Virus record (IMG/VR): IMGVR_UViG_3300005435_000036
Location: 1-35,471 of that record
Source of the DNA: a virus
Direction: 5' to 3' (one strand)
DNA: 35,471 bases
Part shown: positions 1,855-28,052 of the stretch, piece by piece
Layout: every line of letters starts with the position of its first letter
Numbering within the stretch: position 1 is the first letter of the stretch
Made by a program: the position numbers and the translations under genes
The notes under the pieces: model-generated
Told to the model about the DNA's origin: nothing
What the model saw: the letters and a program-made list of their open reading frames with translations, nothing else
Databases searched by the model: none

Positions 1855-2154
1855 CTACCACTTTCTAGGTCTTTCCTGTCCTTTAGGTATCTTGCCGCTC
1901 AAGGCTGCGTTCAAAGCTTCGTTTCGTGAGGCAATCGCTGCCGCTGCTTCCGGTGTCTGAGCTATTTGTTCCACAGGGATGGGGGCAGGTTGGGGAATAG
2001 TAGAGGCAAAATCCTGCCTAGGCATCGCACGTGATGCAGGCCTATTCGATGCAGGTTGGTCGATCAGCTTGATTCTCTCAACGATCAGTTCTTTTACCGG
2101 TTTCGAAAGTTTATGATTAACAAGGAGATCGACCAAAAAAGAGAGTTCACTCAT
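1855..2154 (-). CDS. Small hypothetical protein upstream of TerL
   Basis: A 99-residue protein. The start chosen (MSELSFLVDLL) overlaps the stop of the peptidase gene as ATGA, a coupling seen elsewhere in this operon. A start six codons further upstream is possible. The N-terminal half is predicted helical (LVDLLVNHKLSKPVKELIVERIKLI). The second half is low-complexity, rich in Pro and Ala, and ends with a basic tail (KGQERPRKW). I recognise no family. Its position directly before terL suggests a packaging accessory role, which is inference only. Confidence 0.75.
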   Translation of the reverse strand: MSELSFLVDLLVNHKLSKPVKELIVERIKLIDQPASNRPASRAMPRQDFASTIPQPAPIPVEQIAQTPEAAAAIASRNEALNAALSGKIPKGQERPRKW

Positions 2155-2891
2155 ACAAATCGTACACACCATAGATCGCTGGAAAGATTAGGATCAGTAA
2201 AATACTCATATGGCATGCTGAAATAGCCTTGCATACCCCAAGATGACCCCCAGGAGTTTCTTACAATCCATCCCTTATCATCATATCCTACAATAGCAAC
2301 CGCATGCCCTCCAACCATGGATTCATCGGGACTTGGCATAGGGATAATTCCTGTAGCTGCCACCTGATCGGTCATAAAGGAATCATAGACTGAAAAGCCA
2401 ATAACGATTGGAAACCCAGAAGCCAGAACGGTCTTCATTGAATCGACATCTTGGTCAACAGCGCCATATTCTTTAACAATATCCTTTAATGCCGAAAAAT
2501 AAGCTTTCATAGGAGGTCTAATTGCAAAAGCTTCGGGTTCATAGGGCCACATATCTTCTGGGCAAAAACCGAATCTATGCAGAGATTTTATACCATCTCT
2601 AATGGCTGCACCTGCATCGGTATGCACAGTACCTTCCATAGCTCTTTCATTATAATAGATAAACAAACGAGAAGGGATGAAAGCATCTGGTTTTTTCTCT
2701 TTCATCCAATCAAATTCACACAAAAATCCGATGGCATTAGCCGTGCAGCTTCCAAGTTGGCCTTGATCATAAGGTTCTGGACATTGAGATCTTAAATCTA
2801 TTGTCTCCGGTAGGTTTCCAGCTCTTTGAACTGCAAATTTACGGTCTCTGAAATCAGGCTTTTGCGGCTTCCAACCAAAATGTCTTTTCAT
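2151..2891 (-). CDS. Papain-family (C1) cysteine peptidase
   Basis: A cysteine peptidase of 246 residues. The papain signature is complete: Gln43 of the oxyanion hole and nucleophile Cys49 in DQGQLGSCTAN, His196 in GGHAVAIVGYDD, and Asn212 in VRNSWGSSWG. The N-terminal stretch (WKPQKPDFRDR, then LPETIDLRSQC) resembles the short pre-region of bacterial C1 enzymes. There is no signal peptide or long inhibitory propeptide, so it should act in the cytoplasm or inside the particle. It sits in the packaging operon, which is an unusual place. Roles to consider are processing of virion proteins, digestion of host proteins, or lysis; the sequence does not choose between them. Domain assignment is secure, function is not. 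Confidence 0.9.
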   Translation of the reverse strand: MKRHFGWKPQKPDFRDRKFAVQRAGNLPETIDLRSQCPEPYDQGQLGSCTANAIGFLCEFDWMKEKKPDAFIPSRLFIYYNERAMEGTVHTDAGAAIRDGIKSLHRFGFCPEDMWPYEPEAFAIRPPMKAYFSALKDIVKEYGAVDQDVDSMKTVLASGFPIVIGFSVYDSFMTDQVAATGIIPMPSPDESMVGGHAVAIVGYDDKGWIVRNSWGSSWGMQGYFSMPYEYFTDPNLSSDLWCVRFV

Positions 2892-5554: not shown

Positions 5555-5581
5555 TAAAGTTTTTCGCACGAGTACCGATAA
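5555..5581 (+). promoter_or_regulatory. Sigma-28 (FliA)-type promoter
   Basis: TAAAGTTT at 5555-5562, an 11-base spacer, then ACCGATAA at 5574-5581. The flagellar sigma-28 consensus is TAAAGTTT-N11-GCCGATAA, so this matches 15 of 16 positions with exact spacing. A start site near 5588 would give a short leader containing the GGGGGG ribosome binding site of the gene at 5615. A second such promoter stands before the plus-strand gene at 16649. Confidence 0.75.
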
Positions 5582-5614: not shown

Positions 5615-5803
5615 ATGATTACGACAAAATTACTTAAAACGATGATGTCAGTTAACGCCGCCGAAATAGCAATTTCTTACCATGATCTGATTGTTTACTT
5701 GATGGCGCAGGGGTTTTCTGAAGCAAAAGCTAGGAAGATTGCAGAGAAGGGGATTAAGAGCTTAGAAAGTAGATTAAACTGGGCTCTTAATAACAAGAAA
5801 TAA
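5615..5803 (+). CDS. Small helical protein under a sigma-28-type promoter
   Basis: A 62-residue protein. The ATG at 5615 follows a GGGGGG ribosome binding site at 5602-5607; an in-frame TTG at 5600 is less likely. It is helical and amphipathic, with a segment LIVYLMAQGFSEAKARKIAEKG that resembles a small UBA-like or helix-hairpin fold, and it ends basic. No transmembrane span. The gene stands alone on the plus strand between two minus-strand operons, with its own promoter and a strong terminator at 5826-5863. This is the typical layout of an independently expressed accessory (moron) gene. Function unknown. Confidence 0.8.
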   Translation: MITTKLLKTMMSVNAAEIAISYHDLIVYLMAQGFSEAKARKIAEKGIKSLESRLNWALNNKK

Positions 5804-5825
5804 GCGGGTCCCCTCATATAGATAG

Positions 5826-5863
5826 GAAGGGCAGTTCAGATTGGGGACTGCCCTTCTTTATTT
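5826..5863 (+). terminator. Rho-independent terminator after the 5615 gene
   Basis: A perfect 10-bp stem (GAAGGGCAGT at 5826-5835 with ACTGCCCTTC at 5847-5856) is followed by TTTATTT. The loop is 11 bases. Polarity and position fit termination of the plus-strand gene ending at 5803. Confidence 0.85.
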
Positions 5864-7960: not shown

Positions 7961-8033
7961 CTGTGCAGTAGGCTTTTCAAGCCTTTTAAATGTTTCGTGA
8001 ATCTTACAATTTCTCAAAAGAAGGGTATTACAC

Positions 8034-8705
8034 ATGAGATTAAAAGAACTAGCAGCTTTGACTCTACTCCCATTAGCTTTCTCTATAAGTTGCGGCAAGA
8101 AAAATGATGAGCCTAAAGCTGAAATCAAAGTTACTGTCCCAGAAAATCCCCCGAGTATCCCAACTTCTCCCCCTTCTAACCCAGATGATTCTACTAACCC
8201 TACCAATCCACCTGTGAACCCGCCGGTGATGCCAACTTTTCCTGAAATAAACCCTCCGATTGCATTTGATCCACCGGAAGCTTTTATGCACCCAATCGAA
8301 GGCATTTGGCAAAATGCCGACTGTAGTCAAGCCACAAATGGCTATGTCACCTTCATTCTAAGCATCGATAAACTCACAATAAAAAAGACTTTGGCACGTT
8401 TTAGCGATGAAAAATGCACAATTTATGTAAATGAATGGGAAAAGAACAATGAGTTTATATATAAAATTAAAGATGCTGAGATCGATTTAACAGTTACCAA
8501 CGATAAAATCGGTATCGATGGTTTTGACCTTGGCAAGACTTACTATAATGTATTTCAAATAGCAGATAAAAACGTCCTCTATTTTGGCAAAACCTATGCT
8601 AAAAGCCCTGAGAAGCGAAGCTATGAAATGGATTATGAGGATAAATGGCTGAAGCTGGATAATCATCCGAAGTTCAATGTCAAACCAGGTTGCGGTGTTC
8701 AATAA
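8034..8705 (+). CDS. Secreted lipoprotein, probable moron
   Basis: A 223-residue protein with a bacterial lipoprotein signal: basic start MRLKE, hydrophobic core, and a lipobox-like SISC whose Cys20 would be lipidated. Next comes a disordered Pro-rich linker of about 60 residues with PP and NPP repeats, then a folded domain beginning near IEGIWQNADC. Three cysteines (in NADC, DEKC and near the end) could form bonds outside. A ribosome binding site (GAAGGG) precedes the ATG. It is the only plus-strand gene between two minus-strand blocks, which fits cargo expressed in an infected or carrier cell. Surface exclusion of other phages is a plausible but unproven role. It implies a host with a lipoprotein pathway. 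Confidence 0.8.
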   Translation: MRLKELAALTLLPLAFSISCGKKNDEPKAEIKVTVPENPPSIPTSPPSNPDDSTNPTNPPVNPPVMPTFPEINPPIAFDPPEAFMHPIEGIWQNADCSQATNGYVTFILSIDKLTIKKTLARFSDEKCTIYVNEWEKNNEFIYKIKDAEIDLTVTNDKIGIDGFDLGKTYYNVFQIADKNVLYFGKTYAKSPEKRSYEMDYEDKWLKLDNHPKFNVKPGCGVQ

Positions 8706-13178: not shown

Positions 13179-13305
13179 GTAATAATACACCTCTCGGAAA
13201 TTCCTAGTAAGTATAGGCCGGTATCACAAAAAACACCTATTTGTTTTATATGGCGTGAATATTGCATGCTAAAGTTTTAAACATAACTCTCCGAAAGGAA
13301 TACGT

Positions 13306-13530
13306 ATGAAAAAGAAAGCGTCAAAAAAGAAAACATCTAAAAAGAAGAAATCAGTAAGATTGAGCAAAGAAACAAAAAAGGAGATTGAGCTCGTGCATCG
13401 CTTGCGCTCAACTCCCTTTGCCTACCATGCGCATAAGCCAAAGAAAAAAAGAAAAAGAAAGAAGATTGTAGCTAACCCAGACAAACGAAAAAAGGATTGG
13501 TTTTTTACAGTGGTGAAAAGCTTTTATTAA
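13306..13530 (+). CDS. Very lysine-rich basic protein, probable nucleic-acid binder
   Basis: A 74-residue protein in which lysine makes up about two fifths of residues, in clusters such as KKKASKKKTSKKKK and KPKKKRKRKK. The central part (SKETKKEIELVHRLRSTPFAYHAH) could form a helix. Ribosome binding site AAAGGAA at good distance. Such composition resembles histone H1-like or condensing proteins of bacteria. Inference: it binds DNA or RNA, possibly condensing the host or phage genome. It could also be a small ribosome-binding protein. It stands alone on the plus strand, convergent with the fibre operon. Confidence 0.7.
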   Translation: MKKKASKKKTSKKKKSVRLSKETKKEIELVHRLRSTPFAYHAHKPKKKRKRKKIVANPDKRKKDWFFTVVKSFY

Positions 13531-15630: not shown

Positions 15631-16017
15631 TTAAGCCACCTTTCCTGCAACAGTAATTGTCATCGTTCCAGTACCACCACTTGCCGTATATAATAAGCGA
15701 CATGCATAGGCACCCGTTGCGGTTACATCAAAAAAACCATTGCCAGAATTTCCTGAAATAGAAACTGATGTTTGAAGAGCCCCATTAACATTGATAGGGG
15801 CAATATTCCATGTCCCGGCATTTGCAATTTGACCATTAGGATCAAGCGCATAATCGTTACTGATTTCTAAAGCCAATGTTCCGGTAGGAGATGTTCCAGT
15901 CCAAGCGATGGCATAACTTACCATCGACAAACCTTGCAAAACCGTTGCAGAAGTATTGACTGTCGAAGCCATATTAAGAGAAGAGGTATAAGGACGTAAT
16001 ACAGTTCTTGTACTCAT
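15631..16017 (-). CDS. Small beta-rich virion protein
   Basis: A 128-residue protein with alternating polar and apolar residues and many Gly/Thr, suggesting a beta-sandwich. Segment ALEISNDYALDPNGQIANAGTW is typical of phage structural proteins of this kind. It overlaps the upstream gene by four bases (ATGA) and lies in the fibre operon. Probably part of the fibre or its attachment; no stronger assignment. Confidence 0.6.
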   Translation of the reverse strand: MSTRTVLRPYTSSLNMASTVNTSATVLQGLSMVSYAIAWTGTSPTGTLALEISNDYALDPNGQIANAGTWNIAPINVNGALQTSVSISGNSGNGFFDVTATGAYACRLLYTASGGTGTMTITVAGKVA

Positions 16018-16517
16018 ATTTCATACCACGCTACTTGAGGGATTGCTAAAGATGTGCCAGCAGCAGCTTGTTGGGCAGTAATCAATATGTTTGCGCCCTG
16101 ATCTATGACAAGGAGAATAGGCGATGTGAAACCATATTGGCCGGATGCATAGACATCAATTAGTGTACCATTGCTCGTTATTGTAGAGCTTTCATAACAG
16201 CTGGCAATGCTGGTTTGCGTAGCCCCACTTCTCATATTGACCGCAGATGTCGTACTGCCTGCCGCATTTATAGTGGGGTTTAAATAGGTCCGAAAAACAA
16301 CCGGGTTGTTATTGGAACTAAAAGCCCTCATGAAAATGAAAATGCTTTTTCCGCTTCCGCTTGGATTCTTTATGACCGTTGTCGGGGTCTCAATAGTATT
16401 TGAAATAGAAGTTCCAGCTGCTGGCAAAGTAAAGGTATTTCCAAGATAAGTCTGCTTGCCATTTAAATCTAAAATGGCTTCTAAAGGCAGCTGCGTCTGC
16501 GTTAGCGGTGCTCCCAT
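16014..16517 (-). CDS. Beta-rich virion protein, first gene of the fibre operon
   Basis: A 167-residue structural protein (GKQTYLGNTFTLPAAGTSISN near the start), with beta-type sequence and few charges. Ribosome binding site AGGAG, eight bases before the ATG. It lies about 45 bases downstream of control motif copy 2, so it is the first gene of the fibre unit that continues to 13549. It is likely a fibre or attachment protein. The assignment rests on composition and place. Confidence 0.6.
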   Translation of the reverse strand: MGAPLTQTQLPLEAILDLNGKQTYLGNTFTLPAAGTSISNTIETPTTVIKNPSGSGKSIFIFMRAFSSNNNPVVFRTYLNPTINAAGSTTSAVNMRSGATQTSIASCYESSTITSNGTLIDVYASGQYGFTSPILLVIDQGANILITAQQAAAGTSLAIPQVAWYEI

Positions 16518-16597: not shown

Positions 16598-16624
16598 TCA
16601 AGTTTCGTTTCCTAATGCCGATAA
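16598..16624 (+). promoter_or_regulatory. Sigma-28 (FliA)-type promoter
   Basis: TCAAGTTT (16598-16605), exactly 11 bases, then GCCGATAA (16617-16624). The -10 element is a perfect match to the sigma-28 consensus and the -35 differs at one base. Predicted start near 16631, just before the GGAGG of the gene at 16649. This is the second such promoter in the window. Confidence 0.8.
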
Positions 16625-16648
16625 GGTATATAAGAGGGAGGACTAGTC

Positions 16649-16801
16649 ATGATCATCAAATACACAATTGTTACGATAGTAGGACTAATCGTACTTAAAT
16701 ATTTCAACCCAAGTGCTGGCGTTTCTTTCACGTTAGGATGTATGGTCTATGGATTTATGCAAGGAAATGAATCTTCTAAGAAACCTTCTGCTGACGAGTA
16801 G
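16649..16801 (+). CDS. Small membrane protein under a sigma-28-type promoter
   Basis: A 50-residue protein. The ATG follows GGGAGGA by six bases. Residues 5-17 (YTIVTIVGLIVLK) form one hydrophobic segment and a second weaker one follows (VSFTLGCMVYGFM). The tail is polar (NESSKKPSADE). It overlaps the 3' end of the convergent ejection-protein gene by 26 bases. It stands alone on the plus strand inside the structural region, with its own sigma-28-type promoter, so it is probably expressed outside the lytic programme. Function unknown; a membrane-located exclusion or signalling role is speculative. Confidence 0.75.
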   Translation: MIIKYTIVTIVGLIVLKYFNPSAGVSFTLGCMVYGFMQGNESSKKPSADE

Positions 16802-18803
16802 CCGTCGCTTGAGGTCCCGTCAAAAAGGCCTGTGAAGATTTTGTGAGGGTTGAAGTCCCTCTTTTATTTTTAGAGGCTTGGGGGATGCCCTGAGATTGTG
16901 GGGCAGGCGTTTGAGCGAAAGTGGCTTGCGCAGCTAGGATGTTTTGCGGCTTAAGCTCCGAGGAAAGAGGAGATCCGGTGAGAAGACTCAAACTCTGTCT
17001 CATTTTGTAACTTGGTTTTTCACCTTTAAGCTGCGCTTCCGTAATTCTATTTGTCAATTTTTGTTGAAGAATATTGTTTATCTCAGGATACATCCCATTA
17101 AAATGCAACATATCTTCAGGCTCTAACATGCCTTTAGCGGCTTTGCCCATAACATGAAGTGGATCTATGGCTATCTTTAAAGCTCTCTCGTAAGAGCGTT
17201 TCTGTTGTGTTTGATCTGGTTTTGGATCGAATGCAAGTTTGGGGCTATTATCCTGCGGTCTCAAATTAGAAAGGTAATTTGAAATTCTACCCTTTGCCGA
17301 TGCAAGAAGCATATTTTGCTCAGGATAAAGATTCGCTAAGGGATGATCATGAAAGATCCCCGGCTTAGATTTATTTTCGTTGGGGTTAAAATCCACCATA
17401 CCACCCTCTGCTAACCCGGGCTGAAGAGGGGGCAAATTTTGGTTTTCCATCTCATTGTCGATATCCTGCTGAACGCCGCCGTTCTTTATCCATTCATCGA
17501 CCTTATCCATGGCTTCTTGCGTTATAGGTGTTTGGTCCAAATAAGGAATCGATTGCTTATAGCCTTCTTTGAACAAACCATTTACCGAAGAGTTTAAAAG
17601 ATTCTCTCCTGTAGAGATCTGTTTTGAATAGTTTAAAAGCGGGGCTAAATCTCCGGCTGCACCTTCAGAGAGCCATTTGGTAACGGTAGGTACTGTATAT
17701 TTGCCGAGTTGGCTCATTGGTTTTTTGATAGCCGAAGCTAAAAAAGGTGTAGCCCAATAGCCGAGCTCACCTACTTGTTTTGATAATGCATTAGCACTTG
17801 TTGCTGCGGCAGCCCATGCTGAAGAGGTCAAAGCATTATCATAGAGATGTTTGCCAAGATTAAACATCTTCTCATCATAGAGGCCACGATCAAATAGATT
17901 TACAGCTCGAGCGGCCTCTTCTCCTGCGATCCCTTTTGCTTGCGCTCCCATACCTGCTAGAAAAGAAGTGGCTTTAGACCCCAAATTAAGCTGTTTTGCA
18001 GCACCCATGCCACCTTCAAAGATCCCCCCCAGCAATCCACCTATGCCAGCGTTGACTAAAGCTGAGGAAACAGGGTGCTCAGGATCACCTTGCCCAATCA
18101 TAGCTTGGCTGATTTGATCACCACCAGTAACAGCGGCATTCGATATAAATGCTTTAAGAGCAGTAGAACCCAATTTTCCTAAAGCGGGAAGAGCTTCCGG
18201 AAGGATCTTGCCTACGCCCTTTGCAATAAGACCTGCTTCCCCCACGCCGCTGGCTAGCCCTGCTCCTAAGCCACCAGCTTCTGCGATACCATGAATCCAA
18301 GGATTGGCTTGTTGACGGGCTGCAATATCTTCAGCGCTGATATTTGGAACACCAAGCTTGCTTAAACCAAGTTCCGCTGCGGTAGCTAGTGGGCCAGCAA
18401 ATCCCTGCGCAGCTCCTTCTAGTCCTGTGAGGACTTTCTCCGAAGGAGTCTCTCTCGAGCTAAGAGAATCATCTTTTAGACTATCGAAATCTTCTCCAGA
18501 AAGATCTTTCTCATCAGTAGGGTCTTGCTGAAGTTTGTCGAAATCCTGACCTGTCAGATCCTCAGATTGCTGTTGAGGCTTGGGAGGCATATCTGCTTTT
18601 AAACTATCAAAATCTTTCCCGCTTAAATCTTGGGAGGTATTGCCACCTTCCGCGAAATATTGGCAATCTTTATTATGCTCCCGTTTTGTCTCACAAAAAT
18701 GCTTTACTTCACCGCCTTCTGCAAAGCCACCATAGCATCTGCAATTGGGGTGCGGTTTCCCCCGTGATTTGCAATTTGGATTAATACAGGGCTGATTTTC
18801 CAT
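16776..18803 (-). CDS. Large internal virion / ejection protein
   Basis: A 675-residue protein. The N-terminal 60 residues carry two Cys-rich units (CINPNCKSRGKPHPNCRCYGG; HFCETKREHNKDCQYF), each followed by FAEGG. Next are three tandem repeats of the form DLSGxDFDSLKxD separated by Gln/Pro-rich spacers. Residues about 130-300 are Gly/Ala-rich and hydrophobic (GLGAGLASGVGEAGLIAKGV), as in podovirus proteins that enter the membrane during DNA ejection. The C-terminal part is helical and polar. It lies in line with two further probable ejection proteins. Role inferred from composition, size and place; the Cys motifs could bind zinc. Confidence 0.65.
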   Translation of the reverse strand: MENQPCINPNCKSRGKPHPNCRCYGGFAEGGEVKHFCETKREHNKDCQYFAEGGNTSQDLSGKDFDSLKADMPPKPQQQSEDLTGQDFDKLQQDPTDEKDLSGEDFDSLKDDSLSSRETPSEKVLTGLEGAAQGFAGPLATAAELGLSKLGVPNISAEDIAARQQANPWIHGIAEAGGLGAGLASGVGEAGLIAKGVGKILPEALPALGKLGSTALKAFISNAAVTGGDQISQAMIGQGDPEHPVSSALVNAGIGGLLGGIFEGGMGAAKQLNLGSKATSFLAGMGAQAKGIAGEEAARAVNLFDRGLYDEKMFNLGKHLYDNALTSSAWAAAATSANALSKQVGELGYWATPFLASAIKKPMSQLGKYTVPTVTKWLSEGAAGDLAPLLNYSKQISTGENLLNSSVNGLFKEGYKQSIPYLDQTPITQEAMDKVDEWIKNGGVQQDIDNEMENQNLPPLQPGLAEGGMVDFNPNENKSKPGIFHDHPLANLYPEQNMLLASAKGRISNYLSNLRPQDNSPKLAFDPKPDQTQQKRSYERALKIAIDPLHVMGKAAKGMLEPEDMLHFNGMYPEINNILQQKLTNRITEAQLKGEKPSYKMRQSLSLLTGSPLSSELKPQNILAAQATFAQTPAPQSQGIPQASKNKRGTSTLTKSSQAFLTGPQATATRQQKVS

Positions 18804-26996: not shown

Positions 26997-28052
26997 TTAC
27001 CAACCAGCGTTTCCACCGCCACCGGAAGCAAAGCCATTGCCACCATATAATGGGTCTTGGCGAGTATTTGAGATTGTATCGGCCTGACCCGCATCTCTAT
27101 TTTGCGCAGCACTTTCGATTCGATCTTTTAAGAATGCTATCTCTGCATCAAGTTTAGCTGTATCGGACTCTTCTTTATCGAGAGCGTATTTTGCTGCTCT
27201 GACAATAGGATAGCGTAGCCATCCGGAGTAGCCAATCGTGGTTAAATCTGTGTCCTGAAGCAAAGCAGGAAGGCGTGGAGAATACCACATCCGTATCTGC
27301 TGATTACCCGCAGGAGTGGGGATGATGTTGACGAAATTGCCCATAAGGCGATAGCGCATGTTATATACGCCATAAATCGTTGAAGTGCTATTTGGATAAA
27401 CATACTTATTGCGTTCGATGAAATCAAATTTAAGTAAAGTCACCCAAGCATTGTTGCTGGTGTTGATGCCTAAATCCATTCCCGCAAGCTTATAAAAAGC
27501 AGGAGCAGGAGTTCCGGAAGCGGCGTTTGGATAAATGCCACCAATATAGTTAGTCGCGCCATCCGGAAGAGGATAGTTGATCGTCGTACCATTGGTATTG
27601 ATGAAAGCAATTTGTGAAGCAAAAAGATCCTCATAACTGTCTATGAGAAGATCGTAGAGTTCATACATTGCAAGACGAAGGAAAGCATTCCATTCGCTTG
27701 TTGTTACAAAATTGCTATTTACCCTATCCGCGGTCTGTTGCGATCGTAAGCGCAATTCAAAAAGTGACATCTCACTTGGAGGAGCTGCCACCATTTGGAC
27801 TATGGATGAATATGGCGAGGTGCCTGAACTATTGGTACCTGCGACCTGGTAATAATACATAATACCGACGCCCGGAAAGGGATCGATATACTGTGTCACT
27901 ACTCCCACAGTCGCAAGATTAGTAAAATTCACCCCATCCGTAGAACGCTGAATCTGATACCCTGTCGCACCTAAAGAGCCTGTCCAGGTGAGTAGAATAT
28001 TTCCATCAGCCTGTTCCACAGAAAGGTTCTGAGGCTGGTAAGGAACAGCCAT
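26997..28052 (-). CDS. FN3-fused tail adaptor (tail tubular A-like)
   Basis: A 351-residue protein. Residues 3-90 form a fibronectin type III domain (PQNLSVEQADGNILLTWTGS, GYQIQRSTDGVNFTNL, YYYQVAGTNSSG). The following part (LRLRSQQTADRVNSNFVTTSEWNAFLRLAMYELYDLL to WLRYPIVRAAKYALDKEESD) fits head-to-tail adaptor proteins of podoviruses. A Gly-rich tail ends it. The adaptor forms a ring below the portal; the FN3 domain probably projects outward and may bind cell-surface sugars. The fusion of FN3 with an adaptor is a useful family marker. Confidence 0.75.
   Translation of the reverse strand: MAVPYQPQNLSVEQADGNILLTWTGSLGATGYQIQRSTDGVNFTNLATVGVVTQYIDPFPGVGIMYYYQVAGTNSSGTSPYSSIVQMVAAPPSEMSLFELRLRSQQTADRVNSNFVTTSEWNAFLRLAMYELYDLLIDSYEDLFASQIAFINTNGTTINYPLPDGATNYIGGIYPNAASGTPAPAFYKLAGMDLGINTSNNAWVTLLKFDFIERNKYVYPNSTSTIYGVYNMRYRLMGNFVNIIPTPAGNQQIRMWYSPRLPALLQDTDLTTIGYSGWLRYPIVRAAKYALDKEESDTAKLDAEIAFLKDRIESAAQNRDAGQADTISNTRQDPLYGGNGFASGGGGNAGW

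Follow-up and report, generated by a model that had tools for sequence, protein, structure and literature searches.

The site at positions 16,598-16,624 of the window is, in our judgement, likely a working promoter for the FliA/sigma-28-family RNA polymerase of the host, driving the gene of a small membrane protein; this is the best explanation of what the sequence contains. Flagellar and developmental genes of bacteria are served by promoters of this kind. The promoter turns up again in the equivalent place in distant relatives of this uncultured soil phage, and therefore these phages probably use the alternative sigma factor of their host to switch on a few small genes. The window, meaning the whole stretch of DNA analysed here, is a virus record from IMG/VR with a length of 35,471 bases. 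Its relevant features are:

16598-16624, plus strand: candidate sigma-28 (FliA)-type promoter, TCAAGTTT-N11-GCCGATAA and then G, 15/16 match
16634-16641, plus strand: Shine-Dalgarno region GGGAGG of the 50-residue ORF, read from the sequence
16649-16801, plus strand: ORF of the 50-residue small membrane protein, no family match
16845-16861, plus strand: terminator-like hairpin with a T tract, 3' of the 50-residue ORF
16776-18803, minus strand: gene of 675 residues belonging to the structural operon and anchoring the conserved slot on one side
16014-16517, minus strand: gene of 167 residues (phrog_5335), the opposite anchor of the slot
5555-5581, plus strand: first sigma-28-type promoter candidate, TAAAGTTT-N11-ACCGATAA and then G, 15/16 match
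5615-5803, plus strand: ORF of a 62-residue soluble small protein, no family match over the cut-off
5824-5858, plus strand: terminator-like hairpin of 14 pairs ending the 62-residue unit
13270-13297, plus strand: weak candidate TAAAGTTT-N12-TCCGAAAG, 13/16, before a Lys-rich 74-residue ORF (13306-13530)

At 16598 the -35 element (TCAAGTTT) agrees with the consensus at 7 of 8 positions, with the TNAAG core intact, and the -10 element (GCCGATAA) at 8 of 8, at a spacing of 11. The first-pass annotation had reported a perfect -10 and a single mismatch in the -35 here, and both its sequence and its coordinates are exact. The distance from the promoter to the ATG of the 50-codon ORF, which has a Shine-Dalgarno region, is 24 nt. 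This ORF lies alone on the plus strand with minus-strand genes on both sides, which bears out the earlier description of an isolated membrane-protein gene. In the protein one segment, residues 1-17 with a mean hydropathy of 1.98, exceeds the cut-off, and a further hydrophobic stretch can be seen by eye. Upstream of the ORF no sigma-70 promoter (TTGACA-N16-18-TATAAT) is listed, and over the whole window the counts of sigma-70-like sites fall below the shuffle means, i.e. they are not above chance.

When both strands of the window are scanned at spacings 10-12, with a score out of 16, only the sites at 5555 and 16598 reach 15/16 or more. The runner-up is 13270, with 13/16 at spacing 12, and the rest score 12 or less. 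From the base composition about 0.0015 matches of 15/16 are expected per window on both strands, and 4 Mb of third-order simulated sequence contain none. That two such sites before lone small plus-strand genes are improbable by chance, as had been claimed, is what these numbers say. The 62-residue ORF behind the 5555 site has a Shine-Dalgarno sequence and is a lone plus-strand gene amid minus-strand genes; the site itself is also present in the relatives L001 and L002. We turned down 13270 as a third sigma-28 site, and it is probably non-functional, since it lacks an intact CGATAA core and a score of 13/16 is often reached by chance. Another lone gene (8034-8705, plus strand) encodes a predicted lipoprotein of 223 residues, with a lipobox-like N-terminus and a proline-rich linker, and has no sigma-28 site. 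In L156 (8120-9508), which is otherwise little similar to the window, three perfect sigma-28 sites have a common start region, GATAAGAAGTATGTAAGT, that is closely like the window's 5555 site, GATAAGATGTATGTAAAT.

The window encodes a terminase, identified by PHROG matches, an SPP1-like portal, an ERF recombinase and a papain-family protease, as well as an SSB-like protein recognised from its sequence. Its group comprises at least 275 uncultured viral contigs found by portal profile in IMG/VR, of which 80 were kept. Among annotated phages there is no match to the window's portal, capsid-candidate or 1157-residue protein, and the portal has no match in plasmids either. In GTDB genomes the portal profile gives a single distant match, with 33% identity, on a contig of a Polyangiaceae MAG. 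No tRNA genes were found in the relatives, and an Rfam search gave no match. Integrases are absent from the sigma-28 clades, so that integrase-based lysogeny is unlikely. A Pfam and NCBIfam search of 40 accessory proteins of the relatives returned no lineage-diagnostic family. The papain-family (C1) protease gene (2151-2891, minus strand) adjoins the terminase and is shared with the window's closest relatives and also, as a PF00112 match, with G034. Its product has 54.5% identity with a protein encoded by an uncultured phage of 595 kb (LR756511) and 42% with one of Burkholderia phage FLC9.

A search of whole records for sites with at most two mismatches gave 23 sites, spread over 15 of 49 viral records, and zero for the reversed-pattern control in the viral records. 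After removal of near-copies 29 non-redundant records remain, and for these 200 permuted motifs served as decoys. At spacing 11 there are 19, 13 and 3 sites scoring at least 14, 15 and 16, respectively, against permuted-motif means of 0.79, 0.03 and 0. At spacing 12 the corresponding numbers are 3, 2 and 1, and at the remaining spacings at most 3, 0 and 0. Downstream of most sites, at 16-33 nt, comes the start codon ATG of an ORF that has a Shine-Dalgarno sequence and, in most cases, 37-104 residues. Further, the base 3' of GATAA was no part of the search pattern, and 16 of 17 sites have a G there. In 52 fragments from other relatives (0.56 Mb) we found one 14/16 site. On the portal tree the presence of sites falls in two clades and takes 4 changes; with shuffling the mean is 10.9, and in 500 shuffles a value as low as 4 never occurred. 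Three sites were taken as chance or uncertain: the one at G017:15017 (spacing 12) lies within the terminase gene, and those at G022:3071 and G008:1461 have no convincing gene downstream. In another relative a 14/16 site on the minus strand (L007:3040), TAAAGTTT-N11-ACCGACAA, is located 20 nt upstream of an RtcB-like RNA ligase gene, as judged by eye.

The 50-residue gene occupies an antisense position between the 675-residue gene and the genes of 167 and 128 residues, which we call the slot. Five genomes have a sigma-28 site in the slot: the window, G004 (slot protein of 102 residues, portal 84% identical to the window's), G017 (57 residues, 71%), G021 (104 residues, 70%) and G046 (37 residues, 55%). 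All five slot proteins behind these sites have a hydrophobic N-terminal segment and otherwise look unrelated. In G012, G034 and G049 the slot holds a small gene with a sigma-70-like promoter, assigned by eye:

G034: TTGATA...TTATAT
G049: TTGACA-N17-TATTAT
G012: extended TGGTATTAT -10

The slot gene of G049 does not encode a membrane protein. G003 and G014, which belong to the window's clade, have neither a sigma-28 site nor a gene in the slot, and the gene is missing in many other relatives as well. At the slot the promoters are thus sigma-28-like in the window's clade and G046 and sigma-70-like in others. Since the same slot carries varying promoters and proteins, the position is conserved and the promoter class and the protein depend on lineage. 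Judged from the sequences, the slot is a conserved place for fast-evolving small membrane proteins, with the promoter class following lineage.

Exact 16/16 sites at spacing 11 are found in at least 120 stretches of IMG/VR, a count that is approximate because near-duplicate contigs are included, and several contigs contain 2-4 sites. At spacing 15, used as the control, the entire IMG/VR contains 53 sites, all of them single. Among the matches listed, 64 of 137 spacing-11 sites have an ORF with Shine-Dalgarno and ATG at most 60 nt downstream, whereas none of the 53 control sites has one (p = 4e-12). Conversely, 38 of the 137 listed spacing-11 sites lie inside an ORF of at least 150 residues, against 42 of the 53 at spacing 15. 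The genes behind perfect sites include, among the matches listed, three rIIA-like genes, one rIIB-like gene, a DUF932 pair and a DNA invertase; capsid and tail families do not occur among them. Few of the listed loci have structural genes in common with the window, which indicates that several phage groups use this promoter class. In classical phages rIIA and rIIB are early genes, and an early or accessory role is therefore preferred over a structural one. Taken as a whole the gene content suggests that sigma-28 sites serve early or accessory, non-structural genes.

Some of these loci deserve description. In L196 (6635-10438) perfect sites precede two genes, one rIIA-like and one rIIB-like, as well as a small conserved ORF, which would make up a sigma-28-controlled early-gene set. 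The uncultured phages L170, L180 and L232 have perfect sites upstream of rIIA-like genes. In L167, L173 and L188 the sites precede single-span membrane peptides of 29-30 residues, echoing the theme of small membrane proteins. Four viral records with names in the style of isolate genomes (L165, L185, L195 and L219) contain one identical perfect site, whose spacer is TACTTTAGTAA; it may belong to a prophage element that FliA controls in a cultured host.

Two further proposals of the first-pass annotation are that the sites are of the sigma-28 (FliA) class and that they would drive small lone accessory genes away from the main operons. The evidence from the relatives, from the spacing and decoy controls and from conserved synteny agrees with both. 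Single 13/16 matches are frequent, and one could imagine that the resemblance is fortuitous and that the ORFs are driven from elsewhere or silent. However, the enrichment, the spacing specificity, the placement before genes, the synteny and the G that follows the -10 without having been selected for all speak against this and the controls contradict it, so we regard chance as a negligible explanation. It is also very improbable that we are looking at a phage-specific promoter which is FliA-like in looks only and is read by a phage-encoded factor. The motif does recur at a fixed spacing in one virus group, and a sigma region-4-like stretch occurs in a small protein of G014. This stretch (G014:C1:27533-27667, plus strand) is part of an open frame of 177 residues just upstream of the sigma-28 site at 27817 in that genome, and the product could be a transcription regulator. 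Against a phage factor stand the 12 members, including the window, in which neither sigma region 2 nor a full FliA-like protein was found, and the motif itself, which agrees with the bacterial FliA consensus at all 16 positions and is also present in unrelated phages. Sigma region 4 was not found in the window. As there is no recognisable phage sigma, a host sigma factor of the FliA type is the simplest and best-supported reader, and we infer that the sites are recognised by a host factor of the FliA/sigma-28 family.

Which bacterium supplies this factor is a separate matter. It is plausible that both units are coupled to a single state of the host cell. That the host is an ordinary flagellated soil bacterium, where sigma-28 simply ties a few accessory genes to the motile state of the cell, is quite possible but short of probable. 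The generic FliA consensus fits unchanged, and csrA-tldR loci of temperate phages have a reported FliA-dependent promoter (PMC13418256); however, this idea alone leaves the frequency of the sites and their spread over several units (3-4 perfect sites in L156, L182 and L196) unexplained. The Bdellovibrio-like predator of the first-pass annotation, with both units as attack-phase genes and FliA dominating transcription in the free-swimming infected cell, is not established and in our opinion rather unlikely. It is attractive because FliA controls about two-thirds of the attack-phase promoters of B. bacteriovorus (PMC3627812) and is reported to be essential in this species (PMC5430801). The sites before rIIA- and rIIB-like genes, whose classical counterparts are early genes, in other phages would also suit sigma-28 as the main sigma factor at entry. 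However, the window has TCAAG-N15-CCGATA, one base short of the attack-phase consensus TTAAG-N16-CCGATA (PMC3627812). Bdellovibrio phage phi1422 (complete, 45,354 bases) was considered as a positive control and rejected, as a scan of the whole genome shows no sigma-28 regulon: its one site of at least 14/16 (14/16, at 8011 on the minus strand) overlies annotated plus-strand genes and precedes no annotated gene. Also against a predator host, annotated phages include no relative of the window and the GTDB matches no Bdellovibrionota contig. Unlikely, too, is a chlamydia-like or other developmental intracellular host, in which the units would, like hctB and tsp, belong to a late sigma-28 stage. 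Sigma-28 has a developmental role in chlamydiae (PMC12282069), and the 16598 site, TCAAG-N14-GCCGATA, is an exact fit to the chlamydial consensus TNAAG-N14/15-GCCGATA (PMC3333780). This consensus is nevertheless common to many flagellated bacteria, and the portal profile has no match in chlamydial contigs of GTDB. An ankyrin-repeat protein in G004, the window's closest full relative (G004:C1:26527-26793, minus strand; the sole case in 33 records), and the Lys-rich 74-residue protein of the window would fit such a host but are non-diagnostic. The Polyangiaceae MAG was not accepted as host because its genome has no sigma-28 site at two mismatches or fewer.

If 16598 is a host sigma-28 promoter, the sigma-28 polymerase would start the transcript a few bases 3' of GCCGATAAG and produce a short mRNA of this one gene, about 230 nt in length, which ends at the hairpin at 16845-16861. 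The 50-residue protein would be translated from the strong Shine-Dalgarno. Its synthesis would precede expression of the minus-strand structural operon or be independent of it, in cells with active sigma-28 and without a phage sigma. Read-through of the structural operon would be antisense to this mRNA and may shut it off. Together with the 62-residue unit at 5555 it would form a two-gene sigma-28 regulon.

What the small proteins do is a guess, as they have no detectable family. Most likely, the 50-residue protein has an early or accessory membrane function, e.g. superinfection exclusion. In our judgement exclusion is a possible role that falls somewhat short of an even chance, and another effect on the envelope stands level with it or behind. 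A holin-like role comes below exclusion and is unlikely; it is disfavoured by the gene having its own promoter, antisense to the structural operon. No endolysin match was obtained among the window proteins scanned, a subset of the ORFs. T4 Imm and rIIA/rIIB are small or membrane-associated exclusion proteins made early by host RNA polymerase. No sequence similarity of the 50-residue protein to them was found; in other IMG/VR phages rIIA- and rIIB-like genes bear the same promoter.

Compared with the bacterial FliA class (E. coli class 3 flagellar promoters, TAAAGTTT-N11-GCCGATAA), the phage sites have the same elements, spacing and place before a gene, with spacing 12 as a minor alternative. 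In contrast, the genes driven would be phage accessory genes instead of flagellar or chemotaxis genes, and the G after GATAA is conserved in the phage family. In the Bdellovibrio attack phase this sigma class likewise controls many non-flagellar genes (PMC3627812). The ChIP-supported sigma-28 regulon of C. trachomatis consists of two host genes, hctB and tsp (PMC12282069, PMC3333780), unlike the phage genes here. Our full-text literature search, with most subscription journals outside its scope and therefore weak as evidence, turned up no paper that describes sigma-28 promoters as characteristic of lytic phages. The nearest precedent is the FliA-dependent promoter by csrA-tldR loci, where it also accompanies phage-related genes (PMC13418256). 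Those loci remodel flagella in lysogens, whereas here neither flagellin nor TldR is seen and the clade lacks integrase.

A host alternative sigma factor driving whole phage gene units is little documented. Clade-specific, syntenic sigma-28 promoters offer a clue, at the level of sequence, to host physiology and infection stage, and the small phage membrane proteins behind them form a testable list. Further, one gene slot with a sigma-70-like or a sigma-28-like promoter, depending on the relative, amounts to a natural experiment in promoter adaptation. More doubtful is a broader idea: several unrelated uncultured phage groups may have moved early or accessory genes, both small membrane and rIIA/rIIB-like ones, to host sigma-28 promoters because the infected cell is dominated by sigma-28, for example in a predator's attack phase or a chlamydial developmental stage. 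If this were true, the promoter class would reveal host and infection stage from the sequence of the phage alone.
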